DNA of 64,000 bases from Haladaptatus cibarius D43 (GTDB lineage Archaea; Halobacteriota; Halobacteria; Halobacteriales; Haladaptataceae), in the NCBI RefSeq assembly GCF_000710615.1, contig NZ_JDTH01000006.1:248001-312000 (forward strand), given 5' to 3'. Positions 1,881 through 12,318 of this stretch are shown here, piece by piece. The stretch's first letter is position 1; every line of letters starts with the position of its first letter. The notes under the pieces are model-generated. The model was given only the letters and a program-made list of their open reading frames with translations, had not been told where the DNA came from and made no database searches. Made by a program: the position numbers and the translations under genes.

Positions 1881-3524
1881 CTAGTCGTCCGCGGGGCTGT
1901 GCCCGCTCTTTGCATCGACGATGTCCTCGGCGCTCTGCTGTTGGCCCATCGGTTTGGGGCTGTGACACTGTCGAACGATTTGTTTGATTCGCTCCGGCGG
2001 TTCGCTGGTCGCCATCGACACGCCGATGGTGATTGCAAACACGATTGGCGTTCCGACGAGTGCGGCTCCGACTGCCGGGAACACTTCGGCGTAAATCGGC
2101 ACGAGCGGCCCGGATTCGGTGGCGAGGATGAGTTCGTTGAACACGGCAGCAGTCCAGATGAGGAGTCCGGTCGTCATCCCGGCGAGGGCACCCTGTCGGT
2201 TGGCGTTCTCCCACCACAGGCCGAGGAAGAACATCGGGAACAACACGAGTCCGGCCAGCGAGAAGGCAAGCGCGACGAGTTCACCGACCAGCGCTGGCGG
2301 GTCGAGTGCGGTAACCGTGACGATAGCACCGAGCACGATGATGGTACTGCGACCGACGAGGAGTTGTTGGCGCTGTGTCGCGTCCGGGTTGATGATGTTC
2401 GTGTAGATGTCGTGCGCCGCGGCCGACGAGGCGGCGATGAACAGCCCCGCAGTCGTTGCAATTGCGGCGGCGATACCGCCCGCCGCGACGAGGCCGACGA
2501 ACCACGTCGGGAGATTTGCGAGTTGCGACGCGAGAACGACGATAACGTCACCTTCCGCGCCGCTCATACCGTTTGCTCCGTAGACGGAACCGACGTTATT
2601 GGCGTAGAGGTCGGTTCCGAACGCCGCGAACGCGGGGGCGCTCAGGTACAGCAGACAGATGAAAAACAGCCCCCAGACGGTTGACCAGCGGGCGGTACGC
2701 TCGCTTTCGACCGTGTAGAATCGAACCAACACGTGCGGAAGGCCACAGGTACCAACGATGAGCGAGAACGCCGTCGCAATCCACAGGAAGTAGCTCGTTC
2801 CGCTGAACGGTTCGGTGAACTCCGTGTTCAGTTGGCCCAACAGCGCGCCGTACTCGACTTGCGGCAGGAAGGTCGAATAGCCCTGCGTGTAGCCGACGGC
2901 GTACAGGCCCGCGAGGAACGCCACGATGAGGATGACGTACTGGACGGCCATGTTCTTCGTCGCGCCGAGCATTCCCGACAGCGCGAGGTAGCCGACCGTG
3001 ATTCCCATCATGAGAATCACCATGGTGGCGTAGTCGCCACCGAACACGTAGATGCCGACCAATCCCATGCCGCGGGCCTGTCCGACCGAGTAGACGAACC
3101 CGATGAGAATCGTCGTCAGCGCGCCGATTGCGCGCGCGGTGTCCGAGTTGAATCGGTCACCGACGAAGTCGGGCGCGGTGTACTTGCCGAACCGGCGCAT
3201 CTGCGCCGCCATGAAGATGAGCAGGACGAAGTAGCCGGTTGACCACCCGACGACGAACGCAAGTCCGTAGTAGCCCGACAGCGCGATGAGTGCCGCCATG
3301 CCGAGGTACGACGCCGCGGACATCCAGTTGGCACCGATTGCCATCCCGTTTTCGACGTTTCCGATGGAGCGACCGGCGACCCACAGGTCTTCGGTGTCGG
3401 CCACGCGGAACGCGTACCCGATGCCCAAAAACAGCAACAACATTCCCGAAACCATGGCGGCCGGGATGATTTTGAACGACGCGTTGAGCGCGTCCGGAAG
3501 CAGTTGAAGCGGCGTGAACGTCAT
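1881..3524 (-). CDS. sodium:solute symporter, large subunit (acetate/monocarboxylate-type, ActP-like)
   Basis: This 547-residue polytopic membrane protein of the SSS family has about 13 hydrophobic segments. The N-terminal signature is EDLWVAGRSIGNVENGMAIGANWMSAASYLGMAAL, and the core includes YTAPDFVGDRFNS. The family couples Na+ entry to uptake of a small carboxylate. It follows a DUF4212 small subunit with a 4-bp ATGA overlap, the arrangement known for two-component acetate-type symporters (TIGR03647/VC_2705 pairs). Placement directly after acetyl-CoA synthetase points to acetate or a related short acid as substrate. That is inference, as the sequence alone does not fix specificity. Confidence 0.9.
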   Translation of the reverse strand: MTFTPLQLLPDALNASFKIIPAAMVSGMLLLFLGIGYAFRVADTEDLWVAGRSIGNVENGMAIGANWMSAASYLGMAALIALSGYYGLAFVVGWSTGYFVLLIFMAAQMRRFGKYTAPDFVGDRFNSDTARAIGALTTILIGFVYSVGQARGMGLVGIYVFGGDYATMVILMMGITVGYLALSGMLGATKNMAVQYVILIVAFLAGLYAVGYTQGYSTFLPQVEYGALLGQLNTEFTEPFSGTSYFLWIATAFSLIVGTCGLPHVLVRFYTVESERTARWSTVWGLFFICLLYLSAPAFAAFGTDLYANNVGSVYGANGMSGAEGDVIVVLASQLANLPTWFVGLVAAGGIAAAIATTAGLFIAASSAAAHDIYTNIINPDATQRQQLLVGRSTIIVLGAIVTVTALDPPALVGELVALAFSLAGLVLFPMFFLGLWWENANRQGALAGMTTGLLIWTAAVFNELILATESGPLVPIYAEVFPAVGAALVGTPIVFAITIGVSMATSEPPERIKQIVRQCHSPKPMGQQQSAEDIVDAKSGHSPADD

Positions 3525-3949
3525 TGTTCGGCCCCTCCGTCGGGGGCGACGGTTTCGGTGTCCGGCGCGGCCTGCTTTGTAGAGTGGTCGATACCGTACT
3601 TGTCGTCCAGTTGGTCACGCTTTCGCGCGTAGATGAACGAGAGAATCAGCGCACCGCTCGGCGCACCCATCGCGGTCAGCAGGTAGTGCAGTGGGAACCC
3701 GAGGATGGTGATGCTCGTCATGAGGTCGGGTGCGAGAAACGTCGCCGTTACCGGGCCGAACACGATGATGGTCCACGCGACGAACATCATCCATACGATT
3801 TTGAGGTGGTCGCGCATGAACGGTGTTGCCGGTTTGAAAATGTTAATTTGCGCATCGAGATAGTTGACGTTCCGCCGACTGGTTTGGACGCCGCCGTCCG
3901 TTTCGATGTCGGGAGCTGTCCCGTCTGATTGTGAGCTATTGTCTGTCAT
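3521..3949 (-). CDS. DUF4212 small subunit of the sodium:solute symporter
   Basis: This 142-residue membrane protein has two hydrophobic helices, one after LKIVWMMFVAWTIIVFGPV and one in TSITILGFPLHYLLTAMG. It ends in the soluble motif ILSFIYARKRDQLDDKYGID that characterises DUF4212 / putative solute:sodium symporter small subunits. The N-terminus is hydrophilic and acidic. Its stop overlaps the large-subunit start by 4 bp (ATGA), and the acetyl-CoA synthetase gene ends 47 bp upstream. The two subunits are expected to form one transporter. Confidence 0.92.
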   Translation of the reverse strand: MTDNSSQSDGTAPDIETDGGVQTSRRNVNYLDAQINIFKPATPFMRDHLKIVWMMFVAWTIIVFGPVTATFLAPDLMTSITILGFPLHYLLTAMGAPSGALILSFIYARKRDQLDDKYGIDHSTKQAAPDTETVAPDGGAEQ

Positions 3950-3996: not shown

Positions 3997-5988
3997 TCAG
4001 TCGTCTCCGACCGTTTCCGCGATGTCTTCGACGACATCTGGATTGCGGAGGGTCGAAGTGTCGCCCAGTTCCTCCTCGTTGGCGATGTCCTCCAAGAGTC
4101 GGCGCATGATTTTCCCGGAGCGCGTTTTCGGCAGTTCCGGCGTGAAGACGATTTCCTCGGGGCGAGCAATCGGGCCGATTGCGTCCTCCACGCCCGCGAC
4201 GATTCGGTCGTGCAGGTCGTCGCCGCCGTCGTAGCCCTCTTCGGTGATGACGTAGCCGTACACGGCCTCGCCTTTCACGTCGTGGTGACCGCCGACGACT
4301 GCGGATTCGGCGACACCTTCGACGCCGACGATGGCCGATTCGATTTCCATCGTTCCGAGGCGGTGGCCGGAGACGTTGAGTACGTCGTCAACGCGGCCGA
4401 GAACCGTGATGTAGCCGTCCTCGTCTATCTTCGCGCCGTCTTCGGGGAAGTACACCCAGTCCGCCGGGTCGTCGCTCTCGGTGTCCGAGTACTCTGCCCA
4501 ATACTCGGAGATGAATCGCTCGTCGTTGTCGTAGAGCGTCCTGAGCATCCCCGGCCACGGCTTGTTGATGGTGAGGTATCCGGCCTTTCCGGGGTCAACT
4601 TCCTCGCCGCGCGTATCGACGACGCGAATGTCGATACCGGGAAGTGGTGGGCCAGCGGAACCGGGTTTCGCGTCCGTCACGCCGGGGAGCGTGGTGAGCA
4701 TCATCCCGCCGGTTTCGGTCTGCCACCACGTGTCCACGATTGGGCAGTTCTCATTTCCGATGTGTTTGTAGTACCATTTCCACGCGCGTGGATTGATTGG
4801 TTCGCCGACCGTGCCGAGCAGTCGAAGCGAGGAAAGGTCGTGTCGTTCCGGATACTGACTGCCCCATTTCATGAACGCGCGAATCGCGGTTGGGGCGGTG
4901 TACAGTTGGTCTACCTCGTACCCTTCCACGATTTCCCAGAGTCGGTTACGGTCGGGATAATCCGGCGTCCCCTCGTACATCACGCTTGTCGTCCCGAGCG
5001 TGAGCGGGCCGTAGACGATGTACGAATGGCCGGTAATCCAGCCGATGTCCGCTGCACACCAGTAGGTGTCCTCCGGTTTGATGTCCAGAACCGCCTGCGA
5101 TGTCCACGCCACGTAGGACAGATAGCCCGCCGTCGTGTGTTTCACGCCTTTCGGTTGTCCCGTCGTCCCCGAGGTGTACATCAAAAAGAGCATATCTTCC
5201 GCGTCCCGCGACACGGGTTCGACGTCTGCTCCCGCGTGCTCGGCCACGAGGTCGTCGTAGTCGTGATGTGACTCAGCCATCGGATGGTCGTACTCGTCGC
5301 CAAGTCGGTCAACCACGGCCACCGCGGTTACGTCGTGGTTGACGCCCGCAAGTCCCTCATCGGCCTTCTCCTTGTGCTGAAGCGGGTCGCCTCGGCGGTA
5401 GTAGCCGTCGCAGGTGACGAGGTATTCGGAGTCCGCGGCGTTCATCCGCGTTGCGAGCGCGTCCGCCGAGAACCCGGCGAAGACGACGCTGTGGGGCGCG
5501 CCGATTCGTGCACACGCCAACATCGCGATCGGCAGTTCCGGCACCATCGGCATGTAGAGCGTAACGATGTCGTCCTCGCCAACACCCTGTTCGCGCAGTG
5601 CTGATGCGAACTCGTTGACCTCCCGGTGGAGGTCGTCGTAGGTGTACGTCCTGTTCTCTTCGTCGGTCGGTTCCCCGACCCACTCGATTGCGACCTCGTC
5701 CCCGCGATTTTCGAGATGGCGGTCGAGGCAGTTCGCCGACGCGTTCAGTGAACCGCCCGTGAACCACTCGTAAAACGGCGGGTTCGAATCGTCGAGAACC
5801 GTGTCGTACTCCACTTCCCAGTCGAGCAAATCGGCCGCTTGCGTCCAACACTCCGGCCAGTTCTGCTCGAACTCGTCGTAGATGGCGTCATCCACGATGT
5901 TCGCCTGCTCGACAAACGACTGTGTGGGTTCGAACCGCTCCCGGTTTTCGAGACGCGCTTCGAGTTCGACATCGTTGTTTTCCGTCAT
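3997..5988 (-). CDS. acs: acetyl-CoA synthetase (AMP-forming)
   Basis: This 663-residue enzyme activates acetate with ATP and CoA to acetyl-CoA. All core acyl-adenylate motifs are present: the P-loop YTSGTTGQPKGVKHTT (about residue 270), the acetate-pocket motif WWQTETGG, and the C-terminal catalytic lysine in LPKTRSGKIMRR. Length matches bacterial and archaeal Acs (about 650). It is the first gene of acs-DUF4212-SSS-uspA, and a TATA element lies about 25-35 bp before its ATG. It feeds the methylaspartate cycle genes encoded upstream on the same strand. Confidence 0.96.
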   Translation of the reverse strand: MTENNDVELEARLENRERFEPTQSFVEQANIVDDAIYDEFEQNWPECWTQAADLLDWEVEYDTVLDDSNPPFYEWFTGGSLNASANCLDRHLENRGDEVAIEWVGEPTDEENRTYTYDDLHREVNEFASALREQGVGEDDIVTLYMPMVPELPIAMLACARIGAPHSVVFAGFSADALATRMNAADSEYLVTCDGYYRRGDPLQHKEKADEGLAGVNHDVTAVAVVDRLGDEYDHPMAESHHDYDDLVAEHAGADVEPVSRDAEDMLFLMYTSGTTGQPKGVKHTTAGYLSYVAWTSQAVLDIKPEDTYWCAADIGWITGHSYIVYGPLTLGTTSVMYEGTPDYPDRNRLWEIVEGYEVDQLYTAPTAIRAFMKWGSQYPERHDLSSLRLLGTVGEPINPRAWKWYYKHIGNENCPIVDTWWQTETGGMMLTTLPGVTDAKPGSAGPPLPGIDIRVVDTRGEEVDPGKAGYLTINKPWPGMLRTLYDNDERFISEYWAEYSDTESDDPADWVYFPEDGAKIDEDGYITVLGRVDDVLNVSGHRLGTMEIESAIVGVEGVAESAVVGGHHDVKGEAVYGYVITEEGYDGGDDLHDRIVAGVEDAIGPIARPEEIVFTPELPKTRSGKIMRRLLEDIANEEELGDTSTLRNPDVVEDIAETVGDD

Positions 5989-6010: not shown

Positions 6011-6023
6011 TATATTATATAAG
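6011..6023 (-). promoter_or_regulatory. TATA box of the acs-symporter operon
   Basis: On the minus strand this reads CTTATATAATATA, a strong match to the haloarchaeal TATA element, centred about 30 bp before the acs ATG. That spacing predicts a leaderless or near-leaderless mRNA. The wider gap to the regulator gene (5989-6147) is AT-rich near the promoter and otherwise featureless. Confidence 0.6.
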
Positions 6024-6147
6024 TGGTGGAGCTAACTATACAAAACAGTCGGTTTTTCAACACAGCGGCCCTCATCGGAAAGAATAGGAGTTCACCACCG
6101 CCGAGAGAGGATTCATCCGACGCCAGTACGCGAGCGAAATTAAGCAA

Positions 6148-8037
6148 TTAGTGTCTCTTTGCGTCCGACGAACCGCTGTCGTCCTCGAACACCGTATCGA
6201 ACACTTTCTGTTGTGCCTTCCGGAGGTGGTTGTGGAGCGTCGGCGACGAAACGTCCATCGACGCCGCGAGTTCCTCGGCGGTACTCCCACGAGGCCATTC
6301 GAAATATCCGGCGAGATAGGCGGCCCGGAGAACCGTCTGCTGGCGCTCGGTCAACCGGTCGTGTACCGACTGCTGGACATCGACCGTGCTCCGCACGGGT
6401 TCGGAAACCTTGCGTTTCGAGCGCAAATCCGTCGCCGGAAACGACCGTTCGACGGTTTCCACGACGCGACGGACATCGACCTGCTCCGAGAAAACGCCGG
6501 AAACGTCGAGGACGCCCGATTCGGCCGACAGTTCGCGGACGGTGCCGCCGCGTTCCACGAGTATCGTCGCGAGCGAGTCGCCGGAAACGACGAATTCGAA
6601 AAGCGCGTCGTCCTCGTAGTCCCGGATAAGACGAGCATCCTCGACAGCGTCCGCGGCGGTTATCCTGTCGAGAACGTCGCCGACGGCGGCCCCGCTGGCC
6701 GTGACGAAGTAGAGCAACGAGTGGTTCGCTATCGGCACCACGCCTTCGAGCGCAAATCGACAGTCGAGTTCCGCCGAAGCCGAGACGAGAAAGACGCCAT
6801 CGTCGGTACTGCGCAGGGAAAGCACCACGCCGGTGTCCGCCAACAGCAGGCGTTTGCGCGCAATCGACGTGATAGTTCGGCCGACTCGTCTGCCGACATC
6901 GGCGAGGAGCGTCCTATCTGTCGGCCGAAACGTGTCGTGGGCGACACAGAGCAATCCGTGAACGGTTTCGTTCGACCGGAGCGGCGCGACGGCGAACGAA
7001 CACCGGGCCACTGTCCCGGCAAGCGACGCTCTATCGACCGACGAAGTAGCCGACGTATCGGCCGACACACCGACCGACGACCCATCAGCAGATAGGTCGT
7101 CGGTCACCGCTTTGCCGACTATCGTCACGTCGGGAATCTCGTCCTCCAGCACGCCGATACCGTCGAGGACGCCACCGAGAACGTCGTTCTCGATTCGTTC
7201 GGGCACAGCAGTCGTCCGTGGCGAACCGTCCGCGTCGCAAATCCAGACGGCGCGGTAGATGCCCGAGAGATGGTCGCAAACGGTTCGTTCCACGGCTTCG
7301 GCCGTGGACGCCTCGGCGAGGGTTTCTCCCAACTCGCCCATACATCGAAGCAGTTCGGAGCGGCGAGAGTCCGATCGGCCATCGTATTCGCGGTCGCGTT
7401 CCCAGTGGTGGTATTCACGGCGGTCGTGATGGTGTTCGCGGTGGTCGTGACGGCGATCGGGCCGACCGCCGTCACGACTCGACTGCTGGTGCGGATGTGC
7501 GAACGCGTCGATGACGTCGGTCGTGGTCGGCCTGTCGAGGTACGGAGCGAGGCTTTCGAGGTTCGTCCATCCGCCGACGGCCTGCACCACCCGCGGGTCG
7601 ATTTCCTCCTCGACGAGACTCCACCAGGCGAAATACTTGCGGAGGTCGCGGCAGGTGACGTCTCGAAGGCCGTCAACGCGGTCTGCGACGTCGCTGACCA
7701 CCATCTGAACTCGGCGTGGTGACACCGCGACGAACGGGTCGTACCGGGAAACGTCGTTCGCGGTGGCGAACTTTCGGAGGTCGTGGGCGATTTCGGGCGG
7801 GACGTATGCCTCCCTCGTTTCGCCGTCTCCATCTGGGACGGAGAGAAAATAGAATCGCTTTCCGTCGCGTTCGCGCTCGGTGAGGTCGGCGGGACAAATG
7901 CGGGTCAGTTCCGAGGGACGGAGTCCGACGCGTCCCGCCAGCGCCACGACGAGGTCTTCGCGGTAGGTTTCGGTTCCGCGGCGGAGACGCTCGTACTCCG
8001 GTGTCGTCAGGAACTCCGTGTTTTCCGCACCGCTCAT
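6148..8037 (-). CDS. Bat-type HTH regulator with tyrosine-recombinase-like N-terminus and GAF-like sensor
   Basis: The start was set at the ATG at 8037 (MSGAENTEFL), giving 629 residues; the open frame extends 51 codons further but those lack coding character. Residues 1-180 resemble the catalytic domain of tyrosine recombinases: R40 in GLRPSEL, R133 in CRDLRKYFAWW, W157 in VGGW and Y166 in LAPYLDRP, but R130 replaces the first histidine of the HxxR motif. Residues about 180-228 are a His/Arg/Asp-rich linker. A GAF-like region (about 235-400) and a bacterio-opsin-activator region follow. The C-terminus is an HTH_10 domain (LTERQQTVLRAAYLAGYFEWPRG...SPTLHNHLRKAQQKVF). It lies between the two acs genes and probably controls acetate metabolism (inference). 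Confidence 0.85.
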   Translation of the reverse strand: MSGAENTEFLTTPEYERLRRGTETYREDLVVALAGRVGLRPSELTRICPADLTERERDGKRFYFLSVPDGDGETREAYVPPEIAHDLRKFATANDVSRYDPFVAVSPRRVQMVVSDVADRVDGLRDVTCRDLRKYFAWWSLVEEEIDPRVVQAVGGWTNLESLAPYLDRPTTTDVIDAFAHPHQQSSRDGGRPDRRHDHREHHHDRREYHHWERDREYDGRSDSRRSELLRCMGELGETLAEASTAEAVERTVCDHLSGIYRAVWICDADGSPRTTAVPERIENDVLGGVLDGIGVLEDEIPDVTIVGKAVTDDLSADGSSVGVSADTSATSSVDRASLAGTVARCSFAVAPLRSNETVHGLLCVAHDTFRPTDRTLLADVGRRVGRTITSIARKRLLLADTGVVLSLRSTDDGVFLVSASAELDCRFALEGVVPIANHSLLYFVTASGAAVGDVLDRITAADAVEDARLIRDYEDDALFEFVVSGDSLATILVERGGTVRELSAESGVLDVSGVFSEQVDVRRVVETVERSFPATDLRSKRKVSEPVRSTVDVQQSVHDRLTERQQTVLRAAYLAGYFEWPRGSTAEELAASMDVSSPTLHNHLRKAQQKVFDTVFEDDSGSSDAKRH

Positions 8038-8194: not shown

Positions 8195-10129
8195 CTATTC
8201 GTTCAGAAGCGATTCGAGTTCGCCGACGACCTCCGGATTTCGGAGCGCGCTCGTGTCGCCGAGGTCTTCTCCGTTTGCGATGGCTTTCAGGTACCGCCGG
8301 ACGACTTTGCCCGACCTCGTTTTCGGCAGAGATGGCGTGAACGTGACGGAATCGGGTGCCGCAATCGACCCGATGGCCGATTCGACGGCCGACTGGACGC
8401 GCGTTCTGAGCACCTCGTCGCCCGCGACGTTCGATTCGGGGCTGACGAATGCGTGAACTTTCGACCCTTTCATCGTGTCCGTCCCGCCGACGACGGCGGC
8501 CTCGGCGACGCCGTCTACGCCGACGATGGCCGACTCGATTTCCGCTGTACTCAATCGACGGCCCGACACGTTGAGCACGTCGTCGGCCCGCCCGAGAAGG
8601 TGGAGGTAGCCGTTCTCGTCCCGGACGGCGTTGTCGCCGGTGTCGTACTGCCACTGCCCCTCGACACGATTCGTTCGACGGGCACCCCAAGCGGCGTCTT
8701 CGCAGAGCGACCGCGCCATCCCCGGCCATGGCCGAGTGAGAACCAAGCGCCCCGACTCGCCGGGCGCGACTTCCTCACCGACTTCGTTGACGACTGCCGC
8801 CCCGATTCCGGGGAGTTCCCGTCCGACGGCACCCGGTCGCATTCGGTCTGCGCCGGGAAGCGTCGAGAGGACGACGCCGCCGGTTTCGGTCTGCCACCAC
8901 GTATCTACGATTGGGCACTCGCCGCCGCCGACGTGTTCGCGGTACCAGCGCCACGCGGTTTCGTCGATGGGTTCGCCCACGGTTCCGAGCAGTCGGAGCG
9001 AGGACAGGTCGTGTTGTTCCGGATACTCGCTTCCCCACTTCATGAACGCCCGAATCGAGGTCGGCGCGGTGTAGAACACGTCCACTTCGTTGCGCTCGAT
9101 GACTTCCCAGAGACGGTTCTTTTCGGGATGGTCGGGCGTCCCTTCGTACAGAACGGTCGTCGCCCCGAGCGCGAGGGGGCCGTAAACGGCATAGGAGTGG
9201 CCGGTAATCCAGCCGACGTCCGCGGAGCACCAGTGTGTATCCTCCGGCCTGAGGTCGAACACGGCGTGACTCGTCCACGCGACGTGCGACAGATAGCCAC
9301 CGGTCGTGTGCTCGACTAACGTCGGTTCGCCCGTCGTTCCCGAGGTGTAGATGAGAAACAGAGAATCGTTCGAATCGCGCTCGACGGGGGCGATTTCGAC
9401 CCCGTCGTAGTCGCTGATGAGGTCGGCGTAGGAGTGAGCGTCACCGATTTCCCCGTCGTCACCGAGCCGATTGACGACAATTTGTTCGACGTCCTGTTCG
9501 ACGGAGAGACAGGCGTTGTCGGCCATGCTCTTGAGGTGGAGCGCGGTTCCCCGGCGGTAGTAGCCGTCGCAGGTAACGAGATATTCGGAGTCCGCACCGG
9601 CCAACCGAGTTGCGAGCGCGTTGGCCGAAAACCCGGCGAAGACGACGCTGTGCGGTGCGCCGATGCGCGCACAGGCCAGCATCGCAATCGGCAGTTCCGG
9701 CACCATCGGCATGTACAGCGTGACGACGTCGTCCTCGCCGACGCCGAGATTTCGGAGGGCCGCCGCGAACGCATTCACCTCGTCCTTAAGTTGGCGGTAC
9801 GTGTAGGTTCGCGTTTCCCCGAGTTTTCCTTCCCAAACGAGCGCCGCCTCGTCGCCGCGACCATCCGCTACGTGACGGTCGATGCAGTTGTACGAGGCGT
9901 TCAACCGACCGCCGGGAAACCAGCGCGTCGAACCATCGTCGTCGAGTACCGCGTCGAACAAACGATGCCAGTCCAGTAGTTCGGCGGCGGTCTTCCAGCA
10001 CGACGGCCACCCCGTTTCGAGAAGGGCGTCGCGGTCGCCCGCGGTGACGTTTGCTCCGTTAACGAACGACGATGGTGGCGTCTCCCGGTCGCGTCCGTGG
10101 GTTGTCTCCTTTCTACTCCCGTTGGCCAT
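8195..10129 (-). CDS. second acetyl-CoA synthetase-like acyl-CoA ligase with altered P-loop
   Basis: This 644-residue AMP-forming ligase is clearly paralogous to the acs at 3997, with shared blocks such as VTLYMPMVPELPIAMLACAR, WWQTETGG and LPKTRSGKVVRRYL including the catalytic lysine. The nucleotide loop is unusual: YTSGTTGEPTLVEHTT replaces the almost universal PKG(V) with PTLV, so the conserved lysine is missing. The last genes of the methylaspartate cluster end 63 bp upstream on the same strand. It may use acetate, propionate or another short acid. Reduced activity or a changed substrate is possible given the loop. Confidence 0.88.
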   Translation of the reverse strand: MANGSRKETTHGRDRETPPSSFVNGANVTAGDRDALLETGWPSCWKTAAELLDWHRLFDAVLDDDGSTRWFPGGRLNASYNCIDRHVADGRGDEAALVWEGKLGETRTYTYRQLKDEVNAFAAALRNLGVGEDDVVTLYMPMVPELPIAMLACARIGAPHSVVFAGFSANALATRLAGADSEYLVTCDGYYRRGTALHLKSMADNACLSVEQDVEQIVVNRLGDDGEIGDAHSYADLISDYDGVEIAPVERDSNDSLFLIYTSGTTGEPTLVEHTTGGYLSHVAWTSHAVFDLRPEDTHWCSADVGWITGHSYAVYGPLALGATTVLYEGTPDHPEKNRLWEVIERNEVDVFYTAPTSIRAFMKWGSEYPEQHDLSSLRLLGTVGEPIDETAWRWYREHVGGGECPIVDTWWQTETGGVVLSTLPGADRMRPGAVGRELPGIGAAVVNEVGEEVAPGESGRLVLTRPWPGMARSLCEDAAWGARRTNRVEGQWQYDTGDNAVRDENGYLHLLGRADDVLNVSGRRLSTAEIESAIVGVDGVAEAAVVGGTDTMKGSKVHAFVSPESNVAGDEVLRTRVQSAVESAIGSIAAPDSVTFTPSLPKTRSGKVVRRYLKAIANGEDLGDTSALRNPEVVGELESLLNE

Positions 10130-10192
10130 TCGTTTCGAGGTTCGTGCAAAAAGACAAAAATCGTTCGCCTACACGGCGGTTGGTGCTACCGG

Positions 10193-11215
10193 CTACCAAA
10201 TTTCAAGCGCCCGGTCGAGCAACCCCTCGTCGTATCGTTCTTTCGTCTGCTCGTCCTGCATCCCGTGGACGGTAGCAACCGTCTCGACAGTGTTTTCGAA
10301 GTTCTTCAACGTCGCTTCGTCCACCATCTGACCGTCGATTGCGACCGCTCCCGTCCCGGTTCCCTTCGCTTCGACGAACGTCTCGATTTTCGAAACCGCG
10401 GTGCGGAGTTCGTCTGCGGTTGGTAGGTGGATGCGGTTCGCTTGCGCGGTCTGATTGGGGTGAAGCGACCAACTGCCGTCGAGGCCGACCCGCGCTTCGC
10501 GCTCGACGTGGTCGGCGTAGCCGTCGCCGTTGTAGAACGAAACGCCTGCGCGCTCGCGGAACAGGCGGTCGAACGGCCCGCCGATGGAGAGCAGGTCGTT
10601 CGCGCTCGCTTCGTTCGAGAGGGCTTCGTAGAGTCCCGACCAGTCGGGTCGCTGGCCAATCTCGCGCCCGCCGAGTTCTGCGGTGTAATCGACCGGCCCG
10701 AACACAAGTGCGGTCAGAAGGGATTCCTGCCCAAATTTGGATATTTCTCGGAGGTCAGAGCGCGCCCGCGCCGATTCGACGATGACGGCCAGTTCGATAT
10801 CCGTGCCAGTTTCACGGCCCGCGGCGGCGACGGCCGCTTCCGCGGCGTTTACGTCTCCGAGACGCCCCACCTTCGGAACCACGAATCCATCGACGTGTTC
10901 GCCGACGGTTTCGGCGAGCGTTTCGATTTGCTCGACGCCGCGCTCGCGGAGCGATTCGCTGTCGTAGGCCCACTCGACGCGCAGCCAGATTTCGCCGGAG
11001 AATGCGGGCGCGTATTCCGGAAGCAACTCCCGGACGTTTTCGAGCGCCTCGTCTTTCATCTCCGGCGCGGTGCCGTCTTCGAGGTCGGGCACCAGCCAGT
11101 CGGGGGCCGAAAATCCCTCCGCGGTGAGGCCGGAGCGGAGATATTTCGCGCTGTCGTCCCGAGGGACGGCGGCGGGTGCGGTCTGGAACGTTCGGCAGAG
11201 TCTCGTCTTAGTCAT
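10193..11215 (-). CDS. citE: HpcH/HpaI (CitE-like) lyase, candidate malyl-CoA / beta-methylmalyl-CoA lyase
   Basis: The ATG at 11215 (MTKTRLCRTFQ) gives 340 residues; the open frame upstream overlaps the preceding gene and is not coding. Family marks are the metal-binding LVPDLEDGTAP loop near residue 40, PKVGRLGDVNAAE, and the conserved glutamate in IELAVIVESARA. In the haloarchaeal methylaspartate cycle a CitE-type enzyme cleaves (2R,3S)-beta-methylmalyl-CoA to propionyl-CoA and glyoxylate and acts in the glyoxylate + acetyl-CoA branch. The position 29 bp after the mesaconyl-CoA hydratase gene supports that role. The specific substrate is inferred from context. Confidence 0.85.
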   Translation of the reverse strand: MTKTRLCRTFQTAPAAVPRDDSAKYLRSGLTAEGFSAPDWLVPDLEDGTAPEMKDEALENVRELLPEYAPAFSGEIWLRVEWAYDSESLRERGVEQIETLAETVGEHVDGFVVPKVGRLGDVNAAEAAVAAAGRETGTDIELAVIVESARARSDLREISKFGQESLLTALVFGPVDYTAELGGREIGQRPDWSGLYEALSNEASANDLLSIGGPFDRLFRERAGVSFYNGDGYADHVEREARVGLDGSWSLHPNQTAQANRIHLPTADELRTAVSKIETFVEAKGTGTGAVAIDGQMVDEATLKNFENTVETVATVHGMQDEQTKERYDEGLLDRALEIW

Positions 11216-11244
11216 TGGTAGTGGGGTGTGTTTCGTGATTTTGT

Positions 11245-12318
11245 CTACTGGTTTCGTCTTCGAATCAGTGCGGTTCGGGTGCCGGAGTACACCGGTTCGT
11301 CGCGCTGGTTGAACGCGTAGTGTTCGAACGTGACTTGGCCTGCCTCCGGGTCGCCCGTGTCCTCGATACCGAGAACGCGGGTAAATCCGTAGATTGTGTC
11401 GCCAACGGTCACGAAGTCGTAGAACCGCTCGTTTCCGTAGCCGATTTCGCGGTAGGTTTTCTCGTCCGAGCGAGCGTGTCCGAGCGCGACCGACCGAGTC
11501 ACGTCGCCATACGCGACGATTTCGCCCGAGGGCGAGTCGGTCATGTAGTCGTCGTTGTGATGCTGTTTCGCGGTGTTGAGTGTCACGAGCGGCAGCGTCG
11601 CCACCATCACGTCGTCCATGGTTCGCCCGCGTTCGTGGCGGTAGGCGACCGCCGCATCGCGGTCTGTCGTTCGTTCGTGAGCGTCGCAAAAATCCTCGAA
11701 ATACGGGCCGTCGGGCGAAATGAACTCGCTCGGAAGGCCGGAATCGTCGGGTTCCGCGGCCGCGCGCGAGTCCGTCGGACTCTCGCGCCCGCCGTCACTC
11801 GCCATCGGTTCCCGGCGCGGAATCATGTTCGTCCGAGTATACGACAGGAGGGGTTCGTCCGTTTCGGCGTCGAATCCGGTCGTTTCCCACGTCACGATGC
11901 CGTAGTCGGGGCGAGAACTCGATTCCCGTTTGGCTTCGACCGTCGATTCGACGCGAATCTCGGTGCCCGGCATGACTGCCGGGTCGTGAAGCGACACGTT
12001 GTCCCTGCCGAGGAAGTAGCCGCCTTTCTCGCTCAAATCCTCGACGCTCGGCCCCATCACGCTGGCGAGCAGGTAATCCGGGTGAATCGGACAGCCGTCG
12101 TAGCCAACTGCTCGCGCGGCGTCAGACCGCCAGTACACTGGGTCGTGGTTGAGTGTCTGGCTCATCCACAGTTCGTTGGCGTGCGCAGAGAGGGTGAATC
12201 CCGGCGCGTGTTCGATTGTCTGTCCGTCGCTGAAATTCTCGAAGTAGTTTCCCTTTTCCAGCGTCTCTGCTCGCTCCAGCGCGTTCGAAAACGTCCGTGA
12301 GTCTGCCCAATCTGTCAT
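11245..12318 (-). CDS. mch: MaoC-family hydratase, candidate mesaconyl-CoA hydratase
   Basis: This 357-residue double hot-dog protein has the N-terminal pattern NYFENFSDGQTIEHAPGFTLS and a dehydratase-like stretch (DPVYWRSDAARAVGYDG) in the first half. A second hot-dog fold lies in the C-terminal half (EIGYGNERFYDFVTVGDTIYGFTRVLG). Length and layout match the two-domain mesaconyl-CoA hydratases that convert mesaconyl-CoA to beta-methylmalyl-CoA. It starts 3 bp after the methylaspartate ammonia-lyase stop, and the CitE-like lyase follows, so substrate and product enzymes flank it. A generic MaoC enzyme is the alternative, but the context is strong. Confidence 0.88.
   Translation of the reverse strand: MTDWADSRTFSNALERAETLEKGNYFENFSDGQTIEHAPGFTLSAHANELWMSQTLNHDPVYWRSDAARAVGYDGCPIHPDYLLASVMGPSVEDLSEKGGYFLGRDNVSLHDPAVMPGTEIRVESTVEAKRESSSRPDYGIVTWETTGFDAETDEPLLSYTRTNMIPRREPMASDGGRESPTDSRAAAEPDDSGLPSEFISPDGPYFEDFCDAHERTTDRDAAVAYRHERGRTMDDVMVATLPLVTLNTAKQHHNDDYMTDSPSGEIVAYGDVTRSVALGHARSDEKTYREIGYGNERFYDFVTVGDTIYGFTRVLGIEDTGDPEAGQVTFEHYAFNQRDEPVYSGTRTALIRRRNQ

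Follow-up and report, generated by a model that had tools for sequence, protein, structure and literature searches.

A probably domesticated, catalytically dead tyrosine-recombinase domain in a haloarchaeal acetate-locus regulator

There are documented precedents for a recombinase fold that has lost its chemistry and now regulates genes or selects targets, namely MrpR, TnsF and Crypton DUF3504. MrpR (YopR), the master repressor of prophage SP-beta, has the recombinase fold, has lost catalytic residues and acts as a DNA-binding regulator (PMC10516654, PDB 8A0A). TnsF of Tn6022 (PMC10293859) and the Crypton-derived DUF3504 proteins (PMC3212892) have inactivated domains of the tyrosine-recombinase type that were recruited for choosing targets or into transcriptional regulators. 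Among archaeal tyrosine recombinases, fam30-04 joins Phage_integrase to BAT and HTH_10, in some members with GAF_2, and is listed among the recombinase families by Badel et al. 2021; the consulted parts of that paper do not say what the family does and mention no loss of catalytic residues, no synteny with an acetate locus and no promoter element (PMC8371274). Bat, the bacterio-opsin activator of Halobacterium, also has a GAF domain and an HTH end. Its description includes a PAS/PAC domain, its target is bop, and the consulted part of the source places an upstream activator site (UAS) near the controlled promoter (PMC1447603).

The regulator described here has 629 aa (open reading frame of 629 codons plus stop) and is encoded at 6148..8037 on the minus strand of the window, the whole 64,000-nucleotide stretch of Haladaptatus cibarius D43 DNA that was analysed. 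From its N-terminus it comprises an integrase-like domain of the tyrosine-recombinase catalytic fold (residues 8–181, 7495..8016), a fast-evolving His/Arg/Asp-rich linker (residues 182–225, 7363..7494), a GAF-like sensor domain (residues 263–389, 6871..7251), a BAT domain (residues 401–554, 6376..6837, 133 bits) and a DNA-binding HTH_10 domain (residues 562–613, 6199..6354, 72 bits), all on the minus strand and the last three assigned by Pfam. The BAT and C-terminal HTH_10 domains of Bat/HTH_10 regulators are thus both present, and the protein fits fam30-04 as defined in the consulted parts of PMC8371274 (Phage_integrase, BAT and HTH_10, with GAF optional). Pfam found no PAS domain, which makes the protein a relative of Bat and not Bat itself; unlike Bat, it has an integrase-like domain before the GAF domain and lies in an acetate-metabolism locus. 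PAS is present in one long homolog (L117).

Homology of the N-terminal domain to tyrosine-recombinase catalytic domains was found with three profiles. The Pfam Phage_integrase match covers residues 9–168 at 27.8 bits (cut-off 27.1), and NCBIfam XerA_Arch matches at E 1.2e-9, a score that falls short of the model's own threshold for membership. A profile built from ten homologs of the family found Pyrococcus abyssi XerA (4a8e) over the whole domain at E 2.3e-11; another XerA structure, 5hxy, matched at E 2e-5. Judged by these profiles the integrase match is not a chance one, being weak for the window sequence alone and solid for the family, and homology and fusion are real. The initial annotation, which had read the letters as a Bat-type regulator with a tyrosine-recombinase-like N-terminus, a GAF-like sensor and an HTH_10 end in one protein, is confirmed on each point. 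The domain starts at residue ~8, leaving no core-binding domain. Predicted structures (window protein plus four Haladaptatus orthologs as input) had low confidence, with pLDDT 57 and 36. Foldseek with the low-confidence model gave no match at E < 0.001, and the best VIA-align rows for the pLDDT 57 model were recombinases with Z of at most 5.5. MrpR, YopR and SroF structures were among the fold matches, which, given the poor model and low Z, are a lead and not proof. Because the models are poor, the evidence for the fold rests on sequence profiles. MrpR has core-binding and catalytic domains without a sensor or HTH fusion, and no sequence match between it and the window protein was found, so the likeness to MrpR-like repressors is an analogy only. 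TnsF and Crypton DUF3504 differ from the window protein in lineage, partner domains and function.

The gene order acs, regulator, acs, DUF4212, sodium:solute symporter on one strand recurs in nearly all fused loci. In the window, all on the minus strand, a second acetyl-CoA synthetase gene, acs2 (8195..10129), lies upstream of the regulator. On its other side are the acetyl-CoA synthetase gene acs1 (3997..5988), in the position of Haloferax volcanii acs7, then genes for a small DUF4212 membrane protein (3521..3949) and a sodium:solute symporter (1881..3524), located where H. volcanii has its acetate transporter ActP. The acetate-cluster setting first proposed is supported. In Haloferax lucentense the arrangement is identical, with a universal stress protein encoded next. 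The homologous acs7-HVO_A0155-ssf-uspA transcript of H. volcanii is acetate-specific, and its products ACS7 and ActP activate and take up acetate, respectively (PMC7746861). The consulted parts of the literature on this inducible operon mention no regulator for it, and the literature search returned no paper on the locus tags expected from synteny, HVO_A0157 (H. volcanii) and HFX_5130 (Haloferax mediterranei). Haladaptatus pallidirubidus carries the acetate cluster twice on one chromosome (L032, L033), with the same within-locus coordinates and scores. Mesaconyl-CoA hydratase and HpcH/HpaI-type lyase are associated with the methylaspartate cycle of acetate assimilation. Genes for both types of enzyme lie directly upstream of the acs genes (10193–12318), which suggests that this pathway is encoded in the same region.

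The N-terminal domain matched 217 of 292 haloarchaeal genomes, and the fused architecture is present across most haloarchaeal families; in a phylum-level search, matches were confined to genomes of the window's own order. Strong matches are mostly fused proteins of about 550–1050 aa, and some are free proteins of about 200–250 aa. Plasmid-borne fused proteins carry the annotation "bacterio-opsin activator domain-containing protein", and free ones on plasmids are labelled "site-specific integrase". In a quick tree of the domains, in which many inner forks are weak, the fused domains group on a single branch (SH-aLRT 100), and by this tree the fused architecture arose once and makes up one family. 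The initial annotation had called such a fusion unusual. The union of fold and regulator is real, but it is pan-haloarchaeal, of single origin and was catalogued in 2021 as fam30-04 (PMC8371274). The closest non-fused relatives found are stand-alone haloarchaeal "site-specific integrases" of ~201–225 aa, about 35–42% identical and many on plasmids (for example L136, L131 and plasmid hits H9–H14 and H17–H30). Free integrases L126–L137 (200–225 aa) consist of the catalytic domain alone, without a core-binding domain and with a complete R-K-H-R-W-Y set; several are on plasmids or near contig ends. Scans of viral contigs and phage records found no viral relatives of the domain. In L093 (5971–6633) the fused frame breaks off prematurely at 220 aa, beyond the integrase domain, and what remains is a separate match; this may be a frameshift, a sequencing error or a natural split.

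A candidate operator lies together with the TATA box of acs1, the first operon gene behind it, at 6016..6046 (minus strand), GTTTTGTATAGTTAGCTCCACCACTTATATA. Footprinting found a conserved block just before this second acs in Haladaptatus, TATAGTTAGCTCCACCACTTATATA, and the all-family consensus of the element is TTNG-N-AYA-N-YTAG-N8-YTTA (searched as [N]A[TC]A[N][TC]TAG-N8-[TC]TTA). The element is found in 64 of 70 loci, 45–61 bp upstream of the projected acs1 start with one exception at 67 bp, and at the other acs, acs2, in only one of 71. Shuffled sequence gave about 0.2%, an optimistic figure because the three consensus strings searched were derived from the same sequences. Positions outside the search are also conserved: TT at −4/−3 (61 and 62 of 63), G at −1 (47/63) and C at +12 (49/63). 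In the 3.93-Mb genome the element is single-copy even with three mismatches allowed. It is missing from all eight acs-DUF4212-symporter operons that lack an adjacent regulator (L151–L156, L159, L171); these come from four genera but five of them from one genus, and so represent few independent events. The genome that holds L171 does encode the regulator, at another locus (L089) with an element of its own, and the divergent fused loci L143, L145, L164 and L165 have a weakened form of the element. TTNG and YTAG repeat at a distance of 9 bp, a spacing at which two protein contacts would fall on almost the same side of the DNA. The element could belong to another factor. It may resemble the Bat UAS, whose sequence was not found in the consulted parts of the Bat literature. 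Covariation of element type with protein residues did not separate the integrase domain from HTH_10, since both follow phylogeny. A second conserved block, CGAACGATTTTTGTCTTTTT, lies upstream of acs2 in Haladaptatus relatives (window about 10130–10190, minus strand).

The active site was aligned across 72 fused and 12 free domains. The positions named initially proved exact: R40, R133, W157 and Y166, the nucleophile position (7540..7542, minus strand), are kept, and R130 (7648..7650, minus strand) occupies the His position of the HxxR box. Two points absent from that annotation are the missing core-binding domain and the loss of the catalytic Lys of the β2–β3 turn, where the window protein has G-E-T-R and stand-alone relatives G-K-P-R. 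Of the enzymatic R-K-H-R-H/W-Y site, the window protein therefore lacks K and H. The full R-K-H-R-W-Y set occurs in 0/72 fused homologs, whereas all twelve stand-alone integrases examined, which are not fused, keep the six residues. Lys is absent from all 72 and His from 69; L091, L101 and L109, a fused-regulator lineage in which the HxxR His was retained or regained, still lack Lys. Conservation of R/R/W/Y, proposed initially as a test, is mixed, being strong for R133 (72/72) and W157 (69/72) and weaker for R40 (62/72) and Y166 (49/72). About seven changes are required on the tree to account for the missing Tyr, and orthologs that share the synteny have lost it repeatedly. A working recombinase or topoisomerase with its activity tied to the sensor would account for the four residues that the window protein keeps and for the His of the three homologs. 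It is nevertheless barely credible beside the losses of Lys, His and, within one syntenic setting, Tyr, the absent core-binding domain, and the confinement to one conserved host locus with no viral relatives found. The enzyme reading is not supported, and it does not fit because none of the 72 homologs keeps the catalytic set and Tyr has been lost repeatedly. The initial annotation had offered a second DNA-binding module or a retained enzyme; the former fits and the latter does not.

Some residues outside the active site are nearly invariant. A putative DNA-reading helix, SPRRVQMVV (residues 106–114, 7696..7722, minus strand), precedes the HxxR box in the alignment, its role being suggested by known recombinase structures; in Cre and XerD, the helix before this box faces the major groove. 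R108 and R109 are present in 72/72 fused homologs, M112 in 71/72 and Q111 in 69/72, and not in stand-alone integrases, so that the RRxQM motif is nearly invariant in fused proteins only. The domain has dN/dS of 0.12–0.30 against 0.29–0.57 for the GAF region, and is the lower in each of five ortholog pairs. It is under purifying selection and is not decaying. A relic carried along in the fusion would explain the lost active site, and the linker and GAF regions do evolve fast, but this selection, together with class-wide retention and invariant non-catalytic positions, makes decay very improbable. It is possible, though unlikely, that HTH_10 alone reads the element and that the integrase-like domain is a protein–protein module for oligomerisation or signalling that makes no DNA contact. 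The HTH_10 recognition helix PTLHNHLR is nearly invariant across the fused family, Bat acts through a UAS near bop without an integrase domain, and tyrosine recombinases multimerise on DNA. Against this, conservation within the domain is highest at R133 and at the RRxQM residues of the putative DNA-facing helix, which would be unexpected for a pure protein interface. The proposed DNA-binding role of the integrase-like domain is well supported.

We consider it probable that this is a domesticated, catalytically dead tyrosine-recombinase domain that serves DNA binding in a dedicated one-component regulator of the acetate operon. This is the best explanation of the observed homology, residue loss, selection and synteny and of the element with its co-occurrence with the regulator. 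DNA binding, the choice of the domain that would contact the element, the nature of the signal and the direction of control, here taken as activation, are inferred. The N-terminal domain would descend from a small tyrosine integrase consisting of the catalytic domain only, of the type still free on haloarchaeal plasmids and chromosomes, and would have been fused once to a GAF-BAT-HTH_10 regulator. Cleavage chemistry would have been lost after fusion, Lys and His first and Tyr later and repeatedly, with the dead domain kept as a DNA-binding, possibly oligomerising module. GAF/BAT would sense an acetate-related signal, HTH_10 and the dead domain would hold the DNA beside the TATA box, and the acs-DUF4212-symporter operon would then be switched on. 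Activation is preferred over repression because of Bat and of acetate induction. It seems quite improbable that the dead domain still forms a recombinase-type synapse short of cutting, in which subunits bound at the element would pair with others bound elsewhere, perhaps close to acs2 or to the promoter of the regulator gene itself, and the resulting DNA loop would act as an acetate-responsive switch.

The fused architecture had been described before. Within the literature searched, no account was found of its inactivation pattern, of its acetate locus or of the candidate operator. A widespread haloarchaeal regulator, hitherto placed among recombinases, gains a probable function, a target operon and a candidate operator, and would provide an archaeal case in which a tyrosine recombinase has become a component of a regulator of host metabolism. 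Relatives bearing the active site still exist for comparison with the dead domain, and the regulator hypothesis is directly testable in H. volcanii.
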